Assembly: GCA_009839725.1 (NCBI GenBank)
Contig: VXPF01000117.1
Coordinates: 1 to 64,000 of the forward strand
Direction: 5' to 3'
Origin: Dehalococcoidia bacterium
GTDB taxonomy: Bacteria > Chloroflexota > Dehalococcoidia > Tepidiformales > Tepidiformaceae
Length of the DNA: 64,000 nt
A model generated the notes under the pieces. It made no database searches. It had not been told where the DNA came from and was given only the letters and a program-made list of their open reading frames with translations. Both the position numbers and the translations under genes were made by a program. Each line of letters begins with the position of its first letter. Within the stretch, counting starts at the first letter, position 1. This document shows, piece after piece, positions 6,216-43,852 of the stretch.

Positions 6216-7916
6216 CTACCACTCCCGCTCGAGGTAGGTCTCGAGCACCGCGTAGAAGTGGCGCAGCTTCATCTCGTTGTAGTCGGCGAGCTGGAGCGAG
6301 CCGCCCTCGAGGGAGTGCACGCCCTTCTGGACCCAGGGCATGTTGCCCGTGTCCTGGTCCATCACCATGGCGAGGCCACCGATCTCGGGAGCGAGGGTCC
6401 AGCTGTCGTCGACGTCGAGCTCGTGGACCGGGGGAGCGGGCGGGGGCTCGGTGCCCTCGGGCGTGGGGGCGATGCAGATCGCCTCCATGACGCATTCCTC
6501 CGGGTTGTTGCCGTTGGGGCGGAAGCGGAACCAGATGGCGACCGGACCCCAGCCGCTACTGGGCATGAGGTTGGGGAACAGGTTGTAGTAGATGTTCCCC
6601 GTCAGCTCGGTGTCGGAGACCTTGTCCATCAGGTCGCCGAGCAGGGGTCGCATGGCTTCCCGCATGTCGTTGGCGGCCTTGGCCCGGACTGCGGCTGTGG
6701 CCTTGATGCGGTCTTCGCGCGTCTGGGGCTCGGCGGGGGCGGCGGGCTCGTCGTCCTCGATCTGGGCGTAGAGCTCGGAGCCGTCGGGAGTGGATCCGTT
6801 TTCGCCGGGCGCCGCGCCGGTGTTGTCGAGGCGTCCGCCGGTGCTGTTGGGATCGAGGTCCTCGGGAACCGCCATCTTGAGCTCGTCGGCGACCTGTTCG
6901 CCGCCGACCCACTGGCAGAGGTGCAGGTCGGCATGGCCGAGGTCGCCCTCGACCCAGACAGCCTGGCGCGTGAAGACGCCGCTGCGGCCGTCGGGCATGG
7001 TGACGTCGACGTTGCCGTCGGGGCGGCGCTCATAGATGGCGCCGGTAAAGGCGTGGCGCTCGCGGGGCACGCCGTCGGCGGAGGGCGGGAGCGGGGTCCA
7101 CTCGATGCCCTCGAGGTGAGGGCTGGGGGCGCCGGCGGGGTTGTGCTGGCGCGAGTAGTTCTTGAAGGCGTCGAACTGGGCATTGCAGTCGCCGAAACCC
7201 CAGACGACCTGGGGGTGGGTCGAGAAGACGTGCCACGACTCGGCGAAGGCGTCCTGGGCGACCTTCCAGTTGGCGCGGATGACCTTGCGGACTTCGGCGA
7301 CCTTGTGGCGCTTCTCGTAGGGGAGGAGTGCGAAGTTGTCGGGGAAGTCGTCGAGGAATTCCTCGAAGGGCTCGCAGTCGGGATCGGGGTTGATGAAGAT
7401 GAAGCGTCCCCAGCGCCCGACGGGCACCTCGGGGAGGTTCTGCTCTTCCTTGACGACGTAGGGGAAGTCCCACTGGCAGGGGATCTCCTTGATTGAGCCG
7501 TCGAGGTGCCAGGCCCAGGCATGGAAGGGACAGCGCAGCTCGTGGGTCTTCTTGCCGGCGCGCTCCTTGAGGCGGCGGCCGCGGTGGAGGCAGGCGTTGC
7601 GGAAGGCCTTGAACTCGTCCTCGGCGGTGTGAACGATGAGGAAGCTCAGCTCGCCGATCTCGTAGGGCATGTAGTCGCCGACGTTGGGAATGTCGTCCTC
7701 GTGGCAGGCCATTTGCCAGACGTGCTTCCAGAGCTGCTCCATCTCCTTCTCGTGGTGCTCGCGCGAGAAGTAGAACTCGGCGGGGACGCGGGTGGGGCCC
7801 GGAGGCATGGCCGACTCGCGGCTGAGGTACTCAGGAACCTCGTGCGTGTCGTACTTGATCAGCTCCTGGACGGAGAGTCCGGCGGAGCGGTTGGTGCCAG
7901 TCAGGGTTTCAACCAT
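6216..7916 (-). CDS. Rieske non-haem iron aromatic-ring hydroxylase, alpha subunit
   Basis: 566 residues. The Rieske [2Fe-2S] ligands are C109-x-H111 and C129-x2-H132, with 17 residues between the pairs, as is usual. The mononuclear iron site is suggested by AESWHVFSTHP (H-x4-H) in the catalytic half. The enzyme would hydroxylate or demethylate a ring or alkyl substrate using electrons from a separate reductase, which is not encoded nearby. An unusual Asp/Glu/Ala/Pro-rich insertion of roughly 60 residues lies between the iron site and the last part of the catalytic domain. A TAAAAT box at 7945-7940 and GTGAGG precede ATG 7916. It is divergent from tRNA-Lys. Confidence 0.92.
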   Translation of the reverse strand: MVETLTGTNRSAGLSVQELIKYDTHEVPEYLSRESAMPPGPTRVPAEFYFSREHHEKEMEQLWKHVWQMACHEDDIPNVGDYMPYEIGELSFLIVHTAEDEFKAFRNACLHRGRRLKERAGKKTHELRCPFHAWAWHLDGSIKEIPCQWDFPYVVKEEQNLPEVPVGRWGRFIFINPDPDCEPFEEFLDDFPDNFALLPYEKRHKVAEVRKVIRANWKVAQDAFAESWHVFSTHPQVVWGFGDCNAQFDAFKNYSRQHNPAGAPSPHLEGIEWTPLPPSADGVPRERHAFTGAIYERRPDGNVDVTMPDGRSGVFTRQAVWVEGDLGHADLHLCQWVGGEQVADELKMAVPEDLDPNSTGGRLDNTGAAPGENGSTPDGSELYAQIEDDEPAAPAEPQTREDRIKATAAVRAKAANDMREAMRPLLGDLMDKVSDTELTGNIYYNLFPNLMPSSGWGPVAIWFRFRPNGNNPEECVMEAICIAPTPEGTEPPPAPPVHELDVDDSWTLAPEIGGLAMVMDQDTGNMPWVQKGVHSLEGGSLQLADYNEMKLRHFYAVLETYLEREW

Positions 7917-8018: not shown

Positions 8019-8094
8019 GGGCCCGTAGCTCAGCTGGAAGAGCAGTGGACTTTTAATCCATTGGTCGGGAGTTCGAGTCTCCCCGGGCCTACCA
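8019..8094 (+). tRNA. tRNA-Lys (anticodon TTT)
   Basis: Full cloverleaf of 76 nt. The acceptor arm 8019-8025 pairs with 8084-8090 (including a G1:U72 pair). The D-stem is GCTC/GAGC. The anticodon loop CTTTTAA has anticodon TTT at 8052-8054. The T-stem is GGGAG/CTCCC around TTCGAGT, followed by discriminator A8091 and encoded CCA at 8092-8094. The last 28 bases of the tRNA body up to 8092 are duplicated exactly at 10368-10395. Confidence 0.97.
8065..8092 (+). repeat. 28-bp direct repeat, copy 1 (3' end of tRNA-Lys; attL-like)
   Basis: Covers the end of the variable loop, the whole T-arm, the 3' acceptor strand, the discriminator and the first C of CCA. It is identical to 10368-10395. The tRNA copy is intact, the usual arrangement when an element integrates at a tRNA 3' end and restores it. 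Confidence 0.9.
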
Positions 8095-8164
8095 CTGTCG
8101 TGACCGTCGGCTCCTAGTGGGTCGGGTGACGAAACCTCCCCCCTCGGTATGCGAGTATCGGCGC

Positions 8165-10354
8165 ATGGAGCGCGATCGCGGCGGCAGGCCGCCGTATCCC
8201 GGACCCCTCACCCCGGCCGAGGAGCGGGTGCTCAGGGAGTTGCGCAAGGGCGGCACGAACGCTGAGATCGCCGTGCGCCTCGGCATCAGCCCGGAGACGG
8301 TCAAGACTCACATCGCCCGTATGCTCTCCAAGCTGGACCTCGCGGATCGTCGCCAACTCGCTGCGTGGCGCCCCGAAGCTGGTTGGAGACGCCTCAGGGG
8401 AGTGCTGGCAGTTCCCGCTGTACTGTCCTCCTCCGCTCGTCCCCTGGTCTGGGCAGGTGCGGGACTGGCGGGAGCCGCGGTCATAGTCGGAATAGCCATC
8501 CTCATCGCGGCGCTGATAGCCAATGGCGACCCACCTCCAGCTGCCCCCGCGGTCTCCAGCCCCGACGCCGAGGCGCCAGTCGCCACAGCCACGCCTACTC
8601 CAATCCCGCCTTCCCCGGCAGACCCGGCCGTCCAGTTGAGCGTCGCGAGCGACGGTGCTTGCGTGGTGCGGGAGTCGGGCGAGCTCCTCTGTTGGTCAGC
8701 TGGACGCCAGATTGATGTTCCTCCCGGGAAGTACCTCTCAGTGAGTGTCGGCTTCAGACACAGATGCGCGGTGCGGGAATCCCACGAAGTGACCTGCTGG
8801 GGGAGGAACAACGATGGCGAGGCCGACGGGCCTTCCGGTCGCTTCAGGGCGGTGAGTGCGGGCAACTACTTCACGTGCGGGCTGAGGGACTCGGGAGAGA
8901 TCGTGTGCTGGGGAGAGGGCGGAGATGGACAGACCGGTGCGCTTGCTGGGCAGTACGACTCGGTCAGTGCGGGCCGCAGGCATGCGTGTGCGATACGAGA
9001 GTCGGGGGAGGTGGTCTGCTGGGGGGACAACGACAATGGCGAGACCGATGCGCCCCCGGGGCGGTTCATGGCCGTGAGCGCGGGAGGCTCCTTCACATGC
9101 GCGCTGAAGGACTTGGGAGAGATCGTGTGCTGGGGAAGGGGCGACCAGCTGCGTCCGCCCGTGGGGAAGTACCGCTCCGTCAGCGCCGGGGGATCACACG
9201 CCTGCGCGCTTCGGGAATCGGGCGAGCTGGTGTGCTGGGGGAGCAACGATGTGGGCCAGATCGATGTGAAGCCGGAGCAGTACCATTCGGTCAGCGCCGG
9301 TGGTACGGATACCTGCGCGATTCGCCAGTCGGGTGGGGTGGTCTGCTGGGGACTGCATGACATCTCCGAACTTCTGGACGTACCCGCTGGCGAGTTCCGC
9401 TCGGTGAGCGCCTCTCATTGGTGGGCGTGCGCGCTACGAGAGTCTGGCGAGGTGGTCTGCTGGGGTCTCACCGAAGCTGGTCCTTACGATGCGCCGTCTG
9501 GAACGTACCGCTGGCTTGGTGTGCGCGCTTCCGAGGCGTGTGCGCTACGGGAGTCAGGGGAGGTCGTTTGTTGGCTCCGGGGGGGCAAGGGGCAGACGCA
9601 TGTGCCGCCGGGGAAGTACCGGTCGCTGAGCATGGGTGGTTACCACAACTGCGCGCTGCGGGAGTCGGGGGAGATCGCCTGCTGGGGATACGATGGAAGC
9701 GGCCAGACGGAGGTCCCTCCGGGGCAATACCAAGCGGTGAGCGCCGGCGGTTACCATACGTGCGCACTGCGTGAGTCGGGCGAGATCGCTTGCTGGGGGG
9801 GACGGATCGCTTCCGGGTACGTCGACGGTATTGGCGACTACTACCGCCCTCCCTTGGACTACGGTCAGGGTGAGGCAAGGGAGGGAGAGTTCCGCTCGGT
9901 GGCCGCGGGCGAGGCGCATACGTGCGCGGTGCGGGAATCGGGCGAGCTTGTCTGCTGGGGGCAGAACTACCGCTCATGGGACGGCCATCCCGAGCTTCAG
10001 GCGCCACCGGGAACGTATCGGTCCGTGACCGCCTACGAATACCTGACGTGCGCGTTGCGGGAGTCGGGTGAGGTCGTCTGCTGGTATCCCGGCTATCCCG
10101 ATCTGACTGACGGACCGCCGGGGAAGTATCGCTCGCTGAGCGTGGATGAGCCGTGTGCGGTGCACGAGTCCGGCAAGCTGGTGTGCTGGCCGGCACCGTG
10201 GTTGTATGAGGAGGTGCTCACCGGCTGGGAAGCCTACCCGCTAACGGAGGGATACCGCTCGGTGAGCTCGGGCTGGGTCACGTTCGGAGTGCTTGAAACA
10301 GGGAAGATCGACTACTGGGGAGCGCCGGAGTGGGTGCCGGCGGAGCTTCAGTAG
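8165..10354 (+). CDS. LuxR-type HTH / transmembrane / RCC1-like repeat sensor-regulator
   Basis: 729 residues from ATG 8165 (GTG 8117, 16 codons upstream, is possible). Order: a LuxR/GerE helix-turn-helix at about residues 13-65 (LTPAEERVLRELRKGGTNAEIA...GISPETVKTHI); one hydrophobic segment at about 95-118; a Pro/Ala/Thr linker; then about 15 repeats of ~38 residues around CALRESGEVVCWG, each with a conserved Cys pair. The last repeat has lost its cysteines. The topology (HTH inside, propeller-like repeats outside) resembles ToxR/CadC-type membrane-bound one-component regulators, but pairing LuxR-HTH with RCC1-like repeats is unusual. It lies entirely between two 28-bp copies of the tRNA-Lys 3' end. 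Confidence 0.85.
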   Translation: MERDRGGRPPYPGPLTPAEERVLRELRKGGTNAEIAVRLGISPETVKTHIARMLSKLDLADRRQLAAWRPEAGWRRLRGVLAVPAVLSSSARPLVWAGAGLAGAAVIVGIAILIAALIANGDPPPAAPAVSSPDAEAPVATATPTPIPPSPADPAVQLSVASDGACVVRESGELLCWSAGRQIDVPPGKYLSVSVGFRHRCAVRESHEVTCWGRNNDGEADGPSGRFRAVSAGNYFTCGLRDSGEIVCWGEGGDGQTGALAGQYDSVSAGRRHACAIRESGEVVCWGDNDNGETDAPPGRFMAVSAGGSFTCALKDLGEIVCWGRGDQLRPPVGKYRSVSAGGSHACALRESGELVCWGSNDVGQIDVKPEQYHSVSAGGTDTCAIRQSGGVVCWGLHDISELLDVPAGEFRSVSASHWWACALRESGEVVCWGLTEAGPYDAPSGTYRWLGVRASEACALRESGEVVCWLRGGKGQTHVPPGKYRSLSMGGYHNCALRESGEIACWGYDGSGQTEVPPGQYQAVSAGGYHTCALRESGEIACWGGRIASGYVDGIGDYYRPPLDYGQGEAREGEFRSVAAGEAHTCAVRESGELVCWGQNYRSWDGHPELQAPPGTYRSVTAYEYLTCALRESGEVVCWYPGYPDLTDGPPGKYRSLSVDEPCAVHESGKLVCWPAPWLYEEVLTGWEAYPLTEGYRSVSSGWVTFGVLETGKIDYWGAPEWVPAELQ

Positions 10355-10367
10355 GGCCGTCCCCGCA

Positions 10368-10395
10368 TCGGGAGTTCGAGTCTCCCCGGGCCTAC
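10368..10395 (+). repeat. 28-bp direct repeat, copy 2 (tRNA-Lys 3' fragment; attR-like)
   Basis: Exact copy of 8065-8092 starting 13 nt after the stop codon of the HTH/RCC1 gene. No other part of a tRNA is present upstream of it, so it is a fragment and not a second tRNA. Start-to-start distance to copy 1 is 2303 bp. Confidence 0.9.
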
Positions 10396-10424: not shown

Positions 10425-11336
10425 CTAGCGGCGGGGAGGCTCGGGTGGCGCGCCCCAGCACGTGATTTCGCTGCTCTCCTCGACGGCGCAGGCGTACTCA
10501 CCAGCAGCACCGACGGCGATGAACTTCCCCGGCGGCGCCGTCAGTCCGCCCGGGGAGTAGGCGCCCCAGCAGACAATGGACCGATCGGCCGAGATCCCGC
10601 AGGTGTGTCTAGCCGCGGCGCTCACCGACGAGAAGGCTTCGGTGGGAGGCCTGGCCTGCCCCCGGTCGTTGGCGCCCCAGCACACAACCGCGCCGACGGT
10701 CGTTATCCCACAGGTGTGCTTCCACCCGGCACTGACAGAGAGGAACGGTCCGTACGGGGGGTCAGCCTGACCCGAGTCGTCGGCGCCCCAGCAGGTGACG
10801 GAGCCGTTGGCCCTCACAGCACAGGCGTGAAGCCCGCCGGCGCTCACCGAGTCGAACGTCCCGTCCGGCGGCGAGACCTGCCCAAATCCGTTGTCGCCCC
10901 AGCAGGCAAGGGTGCGATCGCTCCTCACCCCGCAGGTGTGGGAACCACCGGCGCTAACGGAGCGGAAACTCCCGTCGGGGGGCGTTGCCCGGCCATGGCC
11001 GTCGTTGCCCCAGCAGGCCACCCTGCCGTCGGCCCGCAGCCCACAGGTGTGGATCGTCCCGGCGGTGACCGAGGTGAACGCTCCATCTTGCGAGATGGCC
11101 TGGCCGAAGGTGTTCTCGCCCCAGCAGAAGACCGACCCATCGCGCCTCAGTCCGCAAGCGTGTTCTCGGCCGGCGCTGACGGAGACGTAGCCGTCTCCGT
11201 AGTCGGGTTCGGCCGACTCATCGCGTTCCCCGGGTGTCGCCCACACGAGGAAGATGAACACGGCCCCGACGAGCACAAGCAGGATCACGCCAACGACGAG
11301 GGCGAGCCGAATCCCCAGCCACTCCATCTCGTGCAT
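10425..11336 (-). CDS. Membrane-anchored seven-repeat RCC1-like protein
   Basis: 303 residues. An N-terminal hydrophobic segment (about residues 8-32) is followed by exactly seven repeats of about 37 residues of the type HTCGLRADGRVACWG...GQ.TPPDG.F.SVSAG, each with two cysteines. Seven matches the blade number of a closed RCC1 beta-propeller. The repeats are probably outside the membrane, where the paired cysteines could form disulfides. It is convergent with the HTH/RCC1 gene, with the att-like repeat between them. ATG 11327 is an alternative start. Ligand unknown. Confidence 0.85.
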   Translation of the reverse strand: MHEMEWLGIRLALVVGVILLVLVGAVFIFLVWATPGERDESAEPDYGDGYVSVSAGREHACGLRRDGSVFCWGENTFGQAISQDGAFTSVTAGTIHTCGLRADGRVACWGNDGHGRATPPDGSFRSVSAGGSHTCGVRSDRTLACWGDNGFGQVSPPDGTFDSVSAGGLHACAVRANGSVTCWGADDSGQADPPYGPFLSVSAGWKHTCGITTVGAVVCWGANDRGQARPPTEAFSSVSAAARHTCGISADRSIVCWGAYSPGGLTAPPGKFIAVGAAGEYACAVEESSEITCWGAPPEPPRR

Positions 11337-11448: not shown

Positions 11449-12336
11449 ATGACTACGGAAACCGTCGCGGCGAGCTACGACCTTGACCCGGCCGATCCGG
11501 TCGCGGGGATTACCGATGAGGTGATCGCGCGGTGGGAGAAAGACGGCGTGGTGATGCTGCGGAACGCGCTCGGTCCCGAGTGGATGATGCTGCTGGGGAT
11601 GGGGCTGGGGAAGGTGCTCGCCGACTCGGGGATGTACAAGGCGACGTTCTTCGAGGGCACCGAGGGCGAGTTCCACGAGACGGTGCGCAACTTCGACTAC
11701 TCCTTCGAGATCAGGCGGCTGCTCTACGACTCGCCAATCAAGAAGATACTGGGGCGCTTCATCCGCTCGGAGAACGTCTGGTACTACTCGGACGAGTTCT
11801 TCCTGAAGAGCAGCGGCGGGGCGGAGCGGACGCCCTGGCACCAGGACACGCCCTACTACCCGATCGGCGGATCTCAGTTCGCCTCGATGTGGATCTCGCT
11901 CGACGAGCTGAAGCGCGAGGAGTGCCTGGAGTTCGTCGCGGGAAGCCACCTTGGGACGATGTACGACGGCTTCAACCCGTCGAAGCCGGACGACCCCTCG
12001 AGCGGGTTCTACGGCGAGGAGCTGCCGATCCTGCCGGACATCGAGGCGGACCGGGAGAGCTTCCCGATCGTCGGCTGGCCGGTGAACCCCGGCGACGTGA
12101 TCGTGTCCAACCCGCACATCATCCACGGGGGTGGGCCGACGAACCTGGACAGTCAGCGCCGTGCCCTCGCGGTGCGCATGTTCGGCGACGACGTCGTGTT
12201 CGCGAGCCGGCCGGCATCGCGCCCGACGGTGCCGATGACGCCGGGGCTGGGCCTGCACCTGAAGCCGGGGGACCCGCTGCGGAGCCCCTGGTACCCGCAG
12301 CTGGACCCGCCGCCGGCCTCGGAGCGTTACGGCTAG
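11449..12336 (+). CDS. Phytanoyl-CoA dioxygenase (PhyH) family protein
   Basis: 295 residues; Fe(II)/2-oxoglutarate-dependent oxygenase fold. The metal ligands H131-x-D133 lie in TPWHQDTPYY, the distal histidine in NPHIIHGGGP (about H226), and an arginine suited to bind 2-oxoglutarate about 12 residues later. ATG 11449 is chosen because TATAAT at 11412-11417 lies just upstream and PhyH homology begins soon after. In-frame sequence upstream of 11449 overlaps the neighbouring gene and is not protein-like. The substrate is probably an acyl-CoA or small hydrophobic compound. Not in an obvious operon. Confidence 0.9.
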   Translation: MTTETVAASYDLDPADPVAGITDEVIARWEKDGVVMLRNALGPEWMMLLGMGLGKVLADSGMYKATFFEGTEGEFHETVRNFDYSFEIRRLLYDSPIKKILGRFIRSENVWYYSDEFFLKSSGGAERTPWHQDTPYYPIGGSQFASMWISLDELKREECLEFVAGSHLGTMYDGFNPSKPDDPSSGFYGEELPILPDIEADRESFPIVGWPVNPGDVIVSNPHIIHGGGPTNLDSQRRALAVRMFGDDVVFASRPASRPTVPMTPGLGLHLKPGDPLRSPWYPQLDPPPASERYG

Positions 12337-12352
12337 CGAATCGACGCGCGCC

Positions 12353-14587
12353 TCAGGGCGTCGTGAGTTCGGCGCGGTAGGCCTCGAACTGCTCGTAGAA
12401 GTCGTCGGGGGTAAGGCCGAAGGCCTGCTCGAAGGCGGCCTGCCAGCTCCCGGCCCCCGGCTCGTAGTCCTCTGTGTCCGGTTTGCCGCGGGGCAGCAGG
12501 CGGTAGTACTCGATTAGGGAGCGCTCGCCGGCGTGGTTCACGAGCCAGTCGATGGCGAGAAGGCTCAGCGCCAGGCTGTGGTCGTCGCCTGCCTCCACCC
12601 ACCCCTGGTTGGTCTCGAGCTGCCGCAGGGGCGCCTCCATCTCGCGCGCCGGCCCGGTCAGCCGTTCGATCTCTTCTGCGTAGGCGCTCTCCCCGATCCA
12701 CGCCTCAAACGCAACTGTTGCGTAGTAGTGCCCGGCGCTCCGGAGCCACCAGGGCTGGCCGGCACTGTCTGTCCGAGGTTGGAGCTGTGCAAAGGCCATG
12801 CGGACGAGGGTGCGGTCCGACAGGTCACCACCACCACACGAGATGGTGTGGAATACGTAACTCGGGGTACGGCGAAATGAACAGTAGAAGGTGCTGCCCA
12901 GGTAACCCTGACGGTAGAGGCCGTAGAGGGCTGGGCGGGCCGACTCCTCGTCCGCTGCCACGTACACGGAGTACTCGTAGGGGTCTGCTCCCAGCTGCCC
13001 GGTGAGGAAGGTACCCACGTCCTTCACGCGTGTTCGGACGGCTTCCTGCCGTTCGGGCGCGACCTCCCCGAGGAAGATGGCGACCGGCTCGATCACGTCG
13101 TCCTGTGTGTGCGGCAGGGGACGCATCGCCGCCTCGCGGTAGACTTCCCGATCGTCAGTAAACTCCTCCGCGCCGATGTCGAAGAGGGCGCGCAGCGCGC
13201 TCTCGAAGGCAGCCTCTTCGCGGGTTGACGCAAAGGCGGAATAGAACGCCTCGGGATCGATGCCAAAGGCCGCTTCGAAGGCCTCTTGCCAGCTCCGTAA
13301 GGAGCGCAGGAGCCGGTAGTGTTCGATGAACGAGTCGTACTGGGCCTGTTCCAGGAGTGGCAAGGGCTCCTGCGATGTGGCGGCGCTGTCACCTGCGTCT
13401 TCTGCCAGGGCATTTGCGACCAGCCAATCGACTGCCGCTGCAGCCAGGTAGTACCTCTCGGCGGCTCCGTAGAAGTCACTCTCGAGTTCACTGAGTGACT
13501 CTCCAACCCGCCCGGCCACCTGCCACCAGTCCTGGCGGATCTCCTCGCCGGTCTGTGCCCCCACGGTCACCTCGTAAAGGGCGGCTGCGTACGTTGCGGC
13601 TCCCTCGGTGAGCCACACGGGTGGGTACGGATACCTCGCGAGACTGTGCTGGAGCACGTGGAAATATTCGTGGGCGAGCACACGGTTGAGAGAGAACCCC
13701 GTGAGGTTGCTTGCGATGCTGACGGTGGAGGATTGAACGCGGCTGCCGGGGGGACGGCCCAGGAACACCGTCCTGGCCTGGTTGGGGAAATCCTCTTCGG
13801 AGCGGAGGGCAAAGTCGGGAAGATGGAGTCCGTACTGTTCGGCGAAGAACGCGACCACCTCCGCAAGACCGGAGCGGACATCCTCCTGGCGCTCGGGCGT
13901 GACCTCTTCGCTGAAGGCAATCGTGGTGTTCCCGAACCCCGACTGCCACCAGCTTGCCTCCTCCGACAGCTCCAGCAGCAGGGCGTCGCCGCGATTCAGC
14001 TCGGCGAGCGTGCTGGAGGCGCCGGCTCCGGGGACGTACACGTCGAAGCGTTGCGCTTCGGCATCCCAGCGCCACGCGACTGTCACGCGGTCGCCAAAGC
14101 GTCCGAGGGCCGTCTCGATCGGCTCGGCGTCCTGGCCGGCCCAGCCAGTGAGATTGAGGCCGCTCTCGACTGAAAGCAGGGCGTACCGGTCCCAGACGGG
14201 GCGGACCCACTCGACGACCGCGTCGCCGGCGATGAAGAACCACAGTCCCTGTCCGAGGACGGCGCGACTCATCCGGTAGCCGGTGCTCGTGGGCGTGGAC
14301 CTCCGGTAGCGCTGGGCCTCCGTGTCCCAGCCGTAGATATGCGTGAGCTCCGGGATCTCCTCGAAGATACCGCGAACGGGCGTGGGACGGCCCACCCAGC
14401 CGACCATGTTCCAGCCGGGGTACAGGAGCGTCGTGATGGTCTCGGTCTCGGGCTCCTGAGCCTCGGCAGGGGCTGGAGCCGCGATCGCGGCCCAGAGAAG
14501 GACCGCCAGGAACGGGACGGTTAGCAGGTAGGGGAAGCGCTTCAGGACCAGGGCGTCACCCTCTCCAGGCCAACTACTGCTGCGCAC
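12353..14587 (-). CDS. Secreted duplicated gluzincin-like (peptidase MA-type) protein
   Basis: About 744 residues. A signal-peptide-like stretch (KRFPYLLTVPFLAVLLWAAI, ending APAEAQ) leads into two tandem copies of a Trp-rich N-terminal domain (YPGWNMVGW and GLNLTGWAGQ). A peptidase-MA-like domain follows with HEYFH encoded at 13672-13658 and the third ligand Glu 18 residues later in WLTEGAATY. The C-terminal third is a second copy of this domain in which HEYFH has become RMAFAQ, so it should be inactive. The start is uncertain: GTG 14587 gives a normal signal peptide, while ATG 14650 would overlap the P450 leader. Probably an extracytoplasmic zinc protease; substrate unknown. Confidence 0.8.
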   Translation of the reverse strand: MRSSSWPGEGDALVLKRFPYLLTVPFLAVLLWAAIAAPAPAEAQEPETETITTLLYPGWNMVGWVGRPTPVRGIFEEIPELTHIYGWDTEAQRYRRSTPTSTGYRMSRAVLGQGLWFFIAGDAVVEWVRPVWDRYALLSVESGLNLTGWAGQDAEPIETALGRFGDRVTVAWRWDAEAQRFDVYVPGAGASSTLAELNRGDALLLELSEEASWWQSGFGNTTIAFSEEVTPERQEDVRSGLAEVVAFFAEQYGLHLPDFALRSEEDFPNQARTVFLGRPPGSRVQSSTVSIASNLTGFSLNRVLAHEYFHVLQHSLARYPYPPVWLTEGAATYAAALYEVTVGAQTGEEIRQDWWQVAGRVGESLSELESDFYGAAERYYLAAAAVDWLVANALAEDAGDSAATSQEPLPLLEQAQYDSFIEHYRLLRSLRSWQEAFEAAFGIDPEAFYSAFASTREEAAFESALRALFDIGAEEFTDDREVYREAAMRPLPHTQDDVIEPVAIFLGEVAPERQEAVRTRVKDVGTFLTGQLGADPYEYSVYVAADEESARPALYGLYRQGYLGSTFYCSFRRTPSYVFHTISCGGGDLSDRTLVRMAFAQLQPRTDSAGQPWWLRSAGHYYATVAFEAWIGESAYAEEIERLTGPAREMEAPLRQLETNQGWVEAGDDHSLALSLLAIDWLVNHAGERSLIEYYRLLPRGKPDTEDYEPGAGSWQAAFEQAFGLTPDDFYEQFEAYRAELTTP

Positions 14588-14706
14588 GCTAGCACGTCGA
14601 AGACAGACGTACCGCACCCATGCCCGTCGAGACCGTGAAGGCCGCGGCAAGGGGGGCAGGGCTCGATGTACTAAGCTGGACGCGATTGTATCGAAGGCAG
14701 GTTGGC

Positions 14707-41914: not shown

Positions 41915-43852
41915 TCATCGCGCCGGCACGCCGATGAACTCCAGATCGAGCCGCGCCTGGGCCCTCCCGACGCGCCAGCACACGACCTCCCCCGACTGGC
42001 GCAGGGCGCAGGCATGGGAGTCCGCGAGGCTTACCGCCTGGTAGCTGCCCGGCGGTGCGCTCGACCCGCTCCACTCATCGCTCCAGCAGGCCAACTCGCC
42101 CGACTCTCGCAGAGTACAGAGCGCGGCACCTTCAACATAACCACCCACCTCCAGGAGGTCGTAGGCGCTGGGGGGCACGACCGATGCGTAGTAGTCAAGG
42201 GTCTCGTCCGACACCCCAGTGGAGCCCAAGCCCCAACACGCGAGTTCGCCCGACCGTTTCACTCCGCACCCCATGTTCCATGCCACACCCAGGGTCCGAT
42301 AGGGGCCGGGATGAACGTCGACACCGCCCTCTAGCTGCCAGCACACCACGTCTCCCGAGTTGCGAAGGCCGCAGGCATCCGCGCCGCCTGCGCTGACCGC
42401 GACGTAACTTCCCGCGGGTACGTCCAGGAACCAGGGACCGGGGTCGTACCTCGGGGGTTGGGGAACAGTCTCCCAGCAGGCAATCGCCCCGGTATCCTGC
42501 ACGCCACAGGCGAAGCCTCCAGACCCAGTGGCGAGGGCTACGTACTTCCCGGCTGGCGCTGCGTCGGGGAGCACGCCTTCGGGATTCCAGCAGACCGGCT
42601 CGCCCGTCACGCGCAGCGCACATACGGTGCTACTCGCCAACTGCAGCCACCGATAGCCCTCTTCTGTGTAACTGGCGATGGAAAAGAAATTCGGGTGGAA
42701 TCTGGCCGCGCTGACCGACTGGAACTCGCCCGGGGGAATGTGCCGGCGCACGGCCTCCCAGCCCCAGCACTCGATCTCCCCCGAGTCCCGCACGGCGCAG
42801 GTGTAGTTGGTGTGGGAGCCCCAGAAGGATGACGCACTCACCGAACGGTAGTGTCCCGGTGGCGGTTCACCTCCAGGGGAATGCCCGGTCCAGCAGAAGA
42901 GGGCGCCCGACTCCAGAACACCGCAGTCCTCAGCGCCGAGGTCGAGCGCCACGAACTTCCGAGACCCCACGAAGGGCTGCTCCCAGTCCTCGATCTCTCC
43001 CCAGCACGCAAGCTCGCCCGATTCCCGAATCGCGCAGGCGTAGTCAATGCCCGTCGCGATGGCGCTGAACTTCCCCTGCGGCGCTTCGGTCTGGTTGGCC
43101 GGGTCGCCCCCCCAGCAGGCGACCTCGCCGGATTCCCGCAGCGCGCAGTTGGGATAACCCGTCGCGTCCACCGTTTGGTATCGTCCCGGAGGAGTCTCGA
43201 TTTCGCCGTCCTTCCCCCAGCAGACCAAGTCGCCTGATACGCGTATCGCACAGGTTTCCCGCAGGCCGGCGCTGATCGCGGCGAATCGCCCCCGGGGAGC
43301 GTCGAGGAGGCCTCGGTCCGCGTCCCTAACGTCGCCCCAACAGACGATCTCGCCCCCACGCCGTATCGCGCAGGCGTGGCCCGATCCAAGCGCCACCGCA
43401 ACGTATTTTCCCGGGGGCGCCTCGTCCTGGCCGCCGTCGTCGCACTCCGGTGGCACGCAGCGGTACCCGAGGCTGGTGCTCACCTCGACAAATTCGGTCT
43501 CCACCTTGGGCCACTGACCCCACTTTGCGTCGGCGTAGCACTTCAGCTCTCCTGTGACCTCCACCGCGCAGACGTACAAACCGTAGGGGTCCAGGGCCAT
43601 GTCCCGGTGTCTTCCGGGCAGCACCTCGGCTCCGCCGCGGCTCCAACACACCAGCTTGCCGGACTCCCGCAGCGCACAGACTGCCCAGCGCGTACTGAAT
43701 CCGTCGTGACTGCTCTTGACCGCGACCACCGGATCCCAGCCCTGCTCTGAGTCGCCCCAGACCACGAGAGCGGCCCCCACAGCCGCGCCGACGACAATCG
43801 CGGCGACCAGCGCTCCCAGGGCCACGGTTCCCCTGCGCGAGGAGATTGCCAT
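41915..43852 (-). CDS. Membrane-anchored RCC1-like Cys-rich repeat protein
   Basis: 645 residues. A hydrophobic N-terminal segment (about residues 9-32) leads into about 14-15 repeats around CALRESGEVVCWG, each with a Cys pair; one near the N-terminus is degenerate (RCVPPECDDG). Repeats are more diverged and irregular in length than those of the 8165-10354 protein, and there is no HTH. The repeats are probably exported. No att-like tRNA fragment is seen beside it. Divergent from the cysS-like gene. Function unknown. Confidence 0.82.
   Translation of the reverse strand: MAISSRRGTVALGALVAAIVVGAAVGAALVVWGDSEQGWDPVVAVKSSHDGFSTRWAVCALRESGKLVCWSRGGAEVLPGRHRDMALDPYGLYVCAVEVTGELKCYADAKWGQWPKVETEFVEVSTSLGYRCVPPECDDGGQDEAPPGKYVAVALGSGHACAIRRGGEIVCWGDVRDADRGLLDAPRGRFAAISAGLRETCAIRVSGDLVCWGKDGEIETPPGRYQTVDATGYPNCALRESGEVACWGGDPANQTEAPQGKFSAIATGIDYACAIRESGELACWGEIEDWEQPFVGSRKFVALDLGAEDCGVLESGALFCWTGHSPGGEPPPGHYRSVSASSFWGSHTNYTCAVRDSGEIECWGWEAVRRHIPPGEFQSVSAARFHPNFFSIASYTEEGYRWLQLASSTVCALRVTGEPVCWNPEGVLPDAAPAGKYVALATGSGGFACGVQDTGAIACWETVPQPPRYDPGPWFLDVPAGSYVAVSAGGADACGLRNSGDVVCWQLEGGVDVHPGPYRTLGVAWNMGCGVKRSGELACWGLGSTGVSDETLDYYASVVPPSAYDLLEVGGYVEGAALCTLRESGELACWSDEWSGSSAPPGSYQAVSLADSHACALRQSGEVVCWRVGRAQARLDLEFIGVPAR

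Follow-up and report, generated by a model that had tools for sequence, protein, structure and literature searches.

We analyzed a 64,000-nucleotide stretch of the genome of a Dehalococcoidia bacterium (GCA_009839725.1, contig VXPF01000117.1, positions 1 to 64,000; hereafter the window), in which a 2.3-kb segment with a single regulator gene lies directly behind tRNA-Lys(TTT) and ends in a second copy of a piece of this tRNA (Table 1). The repeated sequence, TCGGGAGTTCGAGTCTCCCCGGGCCTAC, corresponds to nucleotides 47-74 of tRNA-Lys; its two copies lie on the same strand with a spacing of 2,303 bp and are identical at 28 of 28 positions, and 30 positions match when the comparison is extended to 31 bp. 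The only plausible gene between them codes for a protein with a GerE/LuxR-type helix-turn-helix (HTH) domain, a transmembrane (TM) helix called by eye, and RCC1 repeats. Its start was set at the N-terminus of the family; the open reading frame (ORF) counted from the first start codon would span 8117-10354. An earlier note on this DNA, made from the sequence alone, had described the exact repeat with one gene and no integrase between its copies. This description is confirmed, as the GerE/RCC1 gene is all that the segment contains and no tyrosine recombinase (PF00589), serine recombinase (PF00239), or large serine recombinase (LSR) was matched in it.

The second copy is singular in the genome of the window (G000). 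A search of this genome with tRNA-Lys returned four matches, namely tRNA-Lys itself, the downstream copy, and two other tRNAs, and no further copy of the tRNA-Lys tail. Among the 45 tRNA predictions of G000 that were tested (two additional tRNAs had too little flanking DNA and were left out), tRNA-Lys alone had a downstream copy of its 3' end that scored clearly above shuffled sequences (56 versus a shuffle maximum of 27), and no convincing tail copy was found at any other. Two further tRNAs scored slightly above their shuffles: the match of an Ile tRNA (35 versus 30) was a neighboring tRNA, and that of tRNA-Arg(CCG) (31 versus 29) was a weak match to tRNA positions 36-61. A seeming second tail in G009 was likewise recognized by eye as a neighboring tRNA-Arg and rejected.

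Table 1. Features at the tRNA-Lys locus of the window
Feature	Position	Strand	Basis
Rieske ring-hydroxylating oxygenase, conserved left border gene	6216..7916	-	Pfam Rieske + Ring_hydroxyl_A; same place in 8/8 genus relatives
tRNA-Lys(TTT), intact, CCA encoded; 3' end is the hot-spot boundary	8019..8094	+	ARAGORN; conservation among relatives stops at about tRNA nucleotide 74
28-bp repeat copy 1, within tRNA-Lys	8065..8092	+	sequence repeat
Promoter-like block directly 5' of the ATG, similar in most gene-family members	8119..8164	+	38 family upstream sequences compared by eye, no statistics
GerE/LuxR HTH - TM - RCC1-repeat gene (regulator), 729 aa	8165..10354	+	Pfam GerE 9.6e-15, RCC1_2 3.4e-84
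28-bp repeat copy 2, putative displaced tRNA-Lys 3' piece	10368..10395	+	repeat and tRNA searches
RCC1-repeat gene, 303 aa, N-terminal hydrophobic stretch (by eye), no HTH; more cargo between the copy and PhyH	10425..11336	-	Pfam
Phytanoyl-CoA-dioxygenase-like (PhyH), conserved right border gene	11449..12336	+	family name by inspection; found in 7/8 relatives

Judging by its domains, the regulator would be a one-component sensor with the RCC1 propeller outside the cell, one membrane span, and the LuxR-type/GerE DNA-binding domain inside. A search with the HTH-TM part in nine genomes of the genus yielded 38 strong genes (12 weak matches of 50 were left out), none of them in G008. Most of the 38 carry, a few bases 5' of the ATG, a block that by eye reads roughly GGTCGGGTRGGGAAAC, a gap, and CTAGNAT, and its position beside the start codon looks as if the mRNAs were leaderless. 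This shared promoter-like block suggests common regulation or self-regulation of the family, and the regulator of the window perhaps acts on its own promoter.

The first gene past the second copy is also of the RCC1 type, and an RCC1 gene of comparable length and orientation stands behind tRNA-Lys in the relative G006. A further RCC1-repeat gene of the window, at 41921-43735, has no tRNA 3' end nearby. Behind PhyH, a 765-aa gene without a Pfam match (12353-14650) precedes a P450 gene; among the genus loci compared, it occurs only in G000 and G007.

We compared the locus in nine genomes of the genus, i.e., G000 and eight relatives. The gene order MFS - LLM - Rieske - tRNA-Lys was kept in all eight relatives, and the region just upstream of PhyH, its promoter region, was conserved on the other side. 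At twelve tRNA-Lys loci from outside the genus, no synteny was found except for one weak LLM match. The left border gene was matched at 79-96% identity in metagenome-assembled genomes labeled Dehalococcoidia, Chloroflexi, and, in one case, Tepidiformaceae; some of their isolate names are suggestive of sponge studies. The sequence was kept up to about nucleotide 74 of the tRNA and diverged beyond this point among all genomes except between G000 and G007. Expressed as the mean blastn cover of 1.4 kb over the 36 genome pairs, conservation dropped from 0.94 upstream to 0.07 downstream of tRNA-Lys. A downstream cover above 0.3 was reached in four of the 36 pairs, namely G000-G007 (0.96) and the three pairs among G001, G005, and G008, in which PhyH falls inside the 1.4 kb.

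Between these conserved borders, the cargo changes from genome to genome. The site is empty in G008, where PhyH follows tRNA-Lys at a distance of about 65 bp. In G001 it is occupied by a single membrane gene, in G003 by a single gene of 429 aa, in G005 (G005:C32, L068) only by a DUF433 and DUF5615 pair, in G006 by a convergent RCC1 gene together with a membrane gene, in G007 by an HTH-RCC1 gene and another ORF that may not be real, and in G002 by about 14 kb, the largest distance to PhyH observed; in G004, no PhyH gene was found within the fetched DNA. Near the right border, G005 (GGCCTACCA, soon after the gene pair) and G002 (GGCCTAC) carry short stretches that repeat the tRNA-Lys end, with no recognizable arm beside them; 7-9-mers of this kind may arise by chance, and G002 has another GGCCTAC within its cargo. 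In all nine genomes, the tRNA-Lys site is free of PF00589 and PF00239 matches, and none of the cargo matched the LSRs of the genus. The regulator is present at this site in two of the nine genomes (G000 and G007) and the 28-bp copy in one. The earlier note had taken different cargo or empty sites in relatives as signs of mobility, and the gene together with both repeats in all relatives as a sign against it; it is the former that the alignments revealed.

We then turned to the recombinases of these genomes. Tyrosine recombinases number two per genome in six of the nine, three in G000, three in G007, and five in G005. A conserved pair, which we presume to be XerC/XerD-like, is present in every genome, and we rejected it as the candidate mover since nothing ties it to the site; the loci of this pair also served as a non-tRNA control that is confounded, the strands not having been normalized. 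In G005:C18 (L352), three tyrosine recombinases are neighbors, and in G000:C112 (L350) an extra one is followed by a small gene pair that resembles, by eye, an antitoxin and a PIN toxin. All PF00589 and PF00239 matches of G000 lie on contigs other than that of the window.

Matches to the resolvase family were more common than tyrosine recombinases (35 in eight of the nine genomes). After four weak matches had been left out, 31 were examined, of which 24 were 500-640 aa long and seven fell outside this range and were dropped. Twelve of the 24 form a clade with at least 67% identity to one member. The domains that characterize LSRs (Resolvase, Recombinase, and zinc ribbon) are present in a member of this clade. 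Eleven of the twelve genes are placed antisense right at the 3' end of a tRNA, which their reading frame enters, and nine kinds of tRNA are concerned: Val-TAC, Val-GAC, Tyr, Gln-CTG (twice), Gln-TTG (twice), Ala-GGC, Arg-CCG, Arg-CCT, and Leu-TAA. The eleven genes are on G000:C33 (L199), G001:C55 (L326), G001:C77 (L271), G002:C68 (L323), G002:C93 (L334), G003:C7 (L324), G005:C45 (L336), G006:C5 (L340), G006:C15 (L331), G006:C23 (L330), and G007:C55 (L335). The twelfth (G000:C155) runs off its contig; another G000 contig ends 49 bp behind tRNA-Ala(GGC) and aligns there at 98% to the LSR end at this tRNA in G002. No tRNA was seen beside the remaining 12 recombinases of 500-640 aa. On the 3' side of tRNAs, there were 39 LSR matches, many of which span the tRNA alone because the LSR frames read into it. 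A few tRNAs also had partial LSR matches on their 5' side, eight in all, three of them at tRNA-Arg(TCG).

The ends of such elements became apparent at tRNA-Gln(TTG) of G006:C15 (L331, L354, L355), which is followed by two tandem elements, the first of 20.7 kb and the second of 9.4 kb; in the latter, the LSR gene is incomplete. G000 (L196) has the corresponding empty site, as its DNA from +10 matches that of G006 from +30,107 with 86% identity over 693 bp. Both right ends of the array read CCTACAGGCCAACCGCCAGTTCGAA.GTTCG.AGTACAGTCGCCTTTGGCCAGCCA and close with CAGCCA, the six bases that terminate the tRNA. This right end, its core fitted to the respective tRNA, recurs at tRNA-Asn in G000, G003, G006, and G007 (in G007, the end is a variant) and also at tRNA-Lys of G006. 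This last one has the weakest arm of the set, and its final seven bases, GGCCTAC, equal the end of tRNA-Lys up to C74. A profile search detected the right end also at tRNA-Asn of G001 (not a seed, E 1.1e-8), and a second profile, built from five other hits without a tRNA in the fetched upstream DNA, detected it at tRNA-Glu of G003 (not a seed, E 1.0e-10). When seeds were left out one at a time and the arms alone were used, six of seven were recovered at E <=4.6e-10 and the G006 tRNA-Lys end at 0.0049; these seeds are not independent, the Asn ends coming from related genomes and the two Gln ends from one array.

Four RCC1 units lie between a tRNA and such an LSR-type right end, whose 6-7-bp core repeats the 3' terminus of the tRNA at which the unit lies, and when the 3' flanks were searched for LSRs, none of the four showed a full one. 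At tRNA-Asn of G000, the unit holds an HTH-RCC1 gene whose frame has a stop, and the right end, 1,375 bp behind the tRNA, overlaps the end of the RCC1 similarity. At tRNA-Glu of G003, an HTH-RCC1 gene is closed by a right end at 2,756 bp, and about 70 bp of an LSR gene end are left beside the tRNA. The units at tRNA-Asn of G001 and tRNA-Lys of G006 hold an RCC1 gene, with right ends at about 1.13 and 1.14 kb, respectively. The statement of the earlier note that a single membrane sensor-regulator is unusual cargo thus does not hold here, since single RCC1 genes recur as cargo in the relatives.

RCC1 genes are also concentrated behind tRNA 3' ends in general. Six of the 38 HTH-RCC1 genes begin 70-224 bp behind a tRNA of the same strand (Lys, Arg-CCG, Asn, or Glu-CTC). 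In the fetched loci, to which the count was confined (at least 62 RCC1 clusters, with G005:C14 among the places left out), eight clusters lay within 300 bp on the 3' side of tRNAs (four kinds of tRNA) and none on the 5' side, with 0.30 expected per side. Within 2 kb the numbers were 15 (six kinds) versus one (expected 1.99), and within 4 kb they were 22 (eight kinds) versus six (four kinds; expected 3.99). These expected values are based on 45 tRNAs in 2.8 Mb and take no account of relatedness, so that the kinds of tRNA are the safer measure. The mean downstream cover was 0.00 at tRNA-Asn, 0.04 at tRNA-Arg(CCG), and 0.03 at tRNA-Glu(CTC), next to the 0.07 at tRNA-Lys (upstream 0.98, 0.98, and 0.55, next to 0.94), and it was 0.61 at tRNA-Asp, 0.39 at tRNA-His, and 0.53 at tRNA-Gly(TCC) (upstream 0.71, 0.75, and 0.58). 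The former four had been chosen because they hold such genes and the latter three because no RCC1 gene was known nearby, and the contrast is therefore partly built in by the choice; G008 contributed no locus for tRNA-Asp and no recognized tRNA for tRNA-His. Downstream hot spots are not a general property of tRNAs.

On these grounds, we read the 2.3-kb segment, with a probability of roughly 0.6, as a small unit that has become integrated at a tRNA-Lys hot spot and that consists of a promoter and one membrane-anchored regulator, with no recombinase of its own. The insertion would leave tRNA-Lys whole at the left end of the unit, and the right copy would be the tRNA 3' piece displaced by the insertion of the DNA between; the inserting recombinase would have acted in trans or would have been lost afterwards. 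The changing cargo between conserved borders, the empty site, and the lack of a recombinase in the unit are direct observations, as are the similar RCC1 units with attachment (att) ends at other tRNAs and at tRNA-Lys of G006, and from these we infer site-specific insertion of the window unit and movement in trans. The 28-bp tail has the orientation and the side expected for insertion at a tRNA 3' end. In its place, cargo, and absence of a recombinase, the unit resembles the RCC1 units with LSR-type ends, and it lies directly behind the tRNA 3' end, as LSR-type elements do. Its right end, however, is a 28-bp tRNA piece instead of an LSR arm, and neither an LSR gene nor a remnant of one was found beside tRNA-Lys in the window; a displaced tail of 28 bp that begins at the T-arm is what would be expected of a tyrosine integrase. 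The most fitting reading is that of a non-autonomous unit inserted at a hot spot. The description as a minimal integrase-free tRNA element in the earlier note is thus supported in part: the site with changing cargo and the RCC1 units with att ends at three tRNAs speak for it, whereas the copy is not of the LSR type and may be younger than the arrival of the gene.

Several observations weigh against this interpretation. The CCTACAG..TTCGAA.GTTCG..GTACAG arm with a short core had no match in the window, no convincing right-end core was found at tRNA-Lys in G001, G003, and G007, and at tRNA-Arg(CCG) of G002 and G006, the HTH-RCC1 gene is accompanied by neither an LSR-type right end nor a tRNA copy; there, the DNA is conserved again from a promoter-like stretch about 1.08 kb past the tRNA. 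The precise 2,303-bp indel between the repeats that the earlier note had envisaged was not found among the genus genomes. A viral collection contained neither the exact 28-mer nor an HTH-RCC1 relative; among phages, the only match was a weak one of the HTH part, in two records of Azospirillum phage Cd. G000 is, moreover, a draft of 2.83 Mb in 160 contigs, the window being contig 158. G007 has a related regulator directly behind tRNA-Lys (65-69% amino acid identity by three measures) and no second 28-bp copy. The synonymous divergence (dS) of the regulator between G000 and G007, 0.68, is like that of three of five neighbors (MFS 0.62, 765-aa gene 0.63, and P450 0.60, compared with LLM 0.20 and Rieske 0.24), so that the gene may be old at this site, yet the copy is identical at 28 of 28 positions. 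As neutral 28 bp of the age indicated by the larger dS values should have changed, there are three options: the copy is younger than the arrival of the gene, G000 acquired the gene at a later time from a relative, or selection has preserved the piece. The 28-bp copy and the gene insertion may thus be separate events.

The main rival of the insertion reading takes up this point. The regulator, common to G000 and G007, would have been there first, and a piece of a tRNA-Lys locus comprising the tail and the adjacent RCC1 gene (10425-11336) would later have been joined behind it by homologous or illegitimate recombination with the right crossover in PhyH, so that the 28 bp would mark the second event rather than the ends of a 2.3-kb element. 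The youth of the copy relative to the divergence of the gene fits such a course, as does the end of the G000-G007 similarity near the regulator stop codon, and G006, where tRNA-Lys is directly followed by a convergent RCC1 gene, shows the arrangement expected of a donor. However, the break would have to start at the T-arm, a typical att boundary, and end at the tRNA end, and the identity between the G000 and G006 RCC1 genes is only 42-52%, so that we regard two events as unlikely. That the gene was simply inherited vertically and the 28 bp are a meaningless accidental local duplication is quite improbable. The gene and its place are common to G007, the divergence is like that of three of five neighbors, and in DNA trees of unlinked flanks G000 and G007 are weak sisters (support 65), but the tree of the tRNA-Lys flank groups G007 with G001, G002, G003, and G006 (support 100) apart from G000, seven of the nine genomes have other cargo or none at the site, and an accidental duplicate of exactly a tRNA 3' piece on the expected side would be unlikely.

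The segment could also be what is left of a larger island after deletion of the integrase and other cargo, with one gene and both ends retained, a possibility that overlaps with the lost-recombinase variant of the insertion reading, such that the probabilities of the readings add up to more than one. The 14 kb at the same site in G002 and the truncated LSR gene end between tRNA-Glu and the HTH-RCC1 gene in G003 are in line with it. It is nevertheless rather unlikely, as in none of the nine genomes did the cargo behind tRNA-Lys show an LSR trace, and RCC1 units with att ends at different tRNAs are more than random deletion would readily give. Returning to an inserted unit, we tentatively consider a more far-reaching scenario: the LSR clade may insert elements exactly behind many tRNA 3' ends, and the one-gene RCC1 units, sensors with or without a DNA-binding domain, may be its non-autonomous passengers, i.e., miniature cassettes with a tRNA-end core by which surface sensors would spread between tRNAs. 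The window unit would then be such a cassette that later had its outer end remade with a longer piece of the tRNA.

The recombinases found on tRNA 3' ends here are LSRs, and small units without an intact recombinase have the same att ends. This provides natural attB/attP pairs for a serine integrase family that uses several tRNA genes, and a view of how sensor genes may multiply inside a genome. Insertion at tRNA 3' ends is already known, and accounts of it usually center on tyrosine integrases. In the literature searched, which was covered in part, no serine integrases at tRNA genes were found, and with the same limit, one-gene units that lack an intact recombinase and have att ends in common with a tRNA-targeting LSR clade look new.

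According to the Islander paper of 2014 (PMC4383910), only tyrosine integrases were known to target tRNA genes, and a displaced tail that starts at the T-arm is described there as their signature. The window unit agrees with the tRNA islands described there in the intact tRNA, the displaced 3' fragment in direct orientation, and the boundary from the T-arm to the 3' end, and its length is just over the 2-kb floor given there. It differs in that it has one gene and no integrase, and by the criteria given there such candidates are rejected. Absence from relatives, another of these criteria, is seen in seven of the nine genomes, which lack the gene, with G008 being empty, but G007 has the gene without the fragment. 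In the streptococcal integrative and conjugative elements in rumA (PMC4701971), the end of the serine integrase gene overlaps the att site; the LSR elements of the genus are alike in that the end of the integrase gene enters the target and the direct repeats are very short, whereas in the window unit an LSR is absent and the repeat measures 28 bp. Tycheposons are described as 4-200 kb long, and the one treated in PMC10872708 carries a tyrosine recombinase, unlike the window unit, which has none; these tRNA-bounded islands share with the window unit that they are bounded by tRNAs, hold strain-variable cargo, and, in one island type, have repeats of a tRNA-Lys end.

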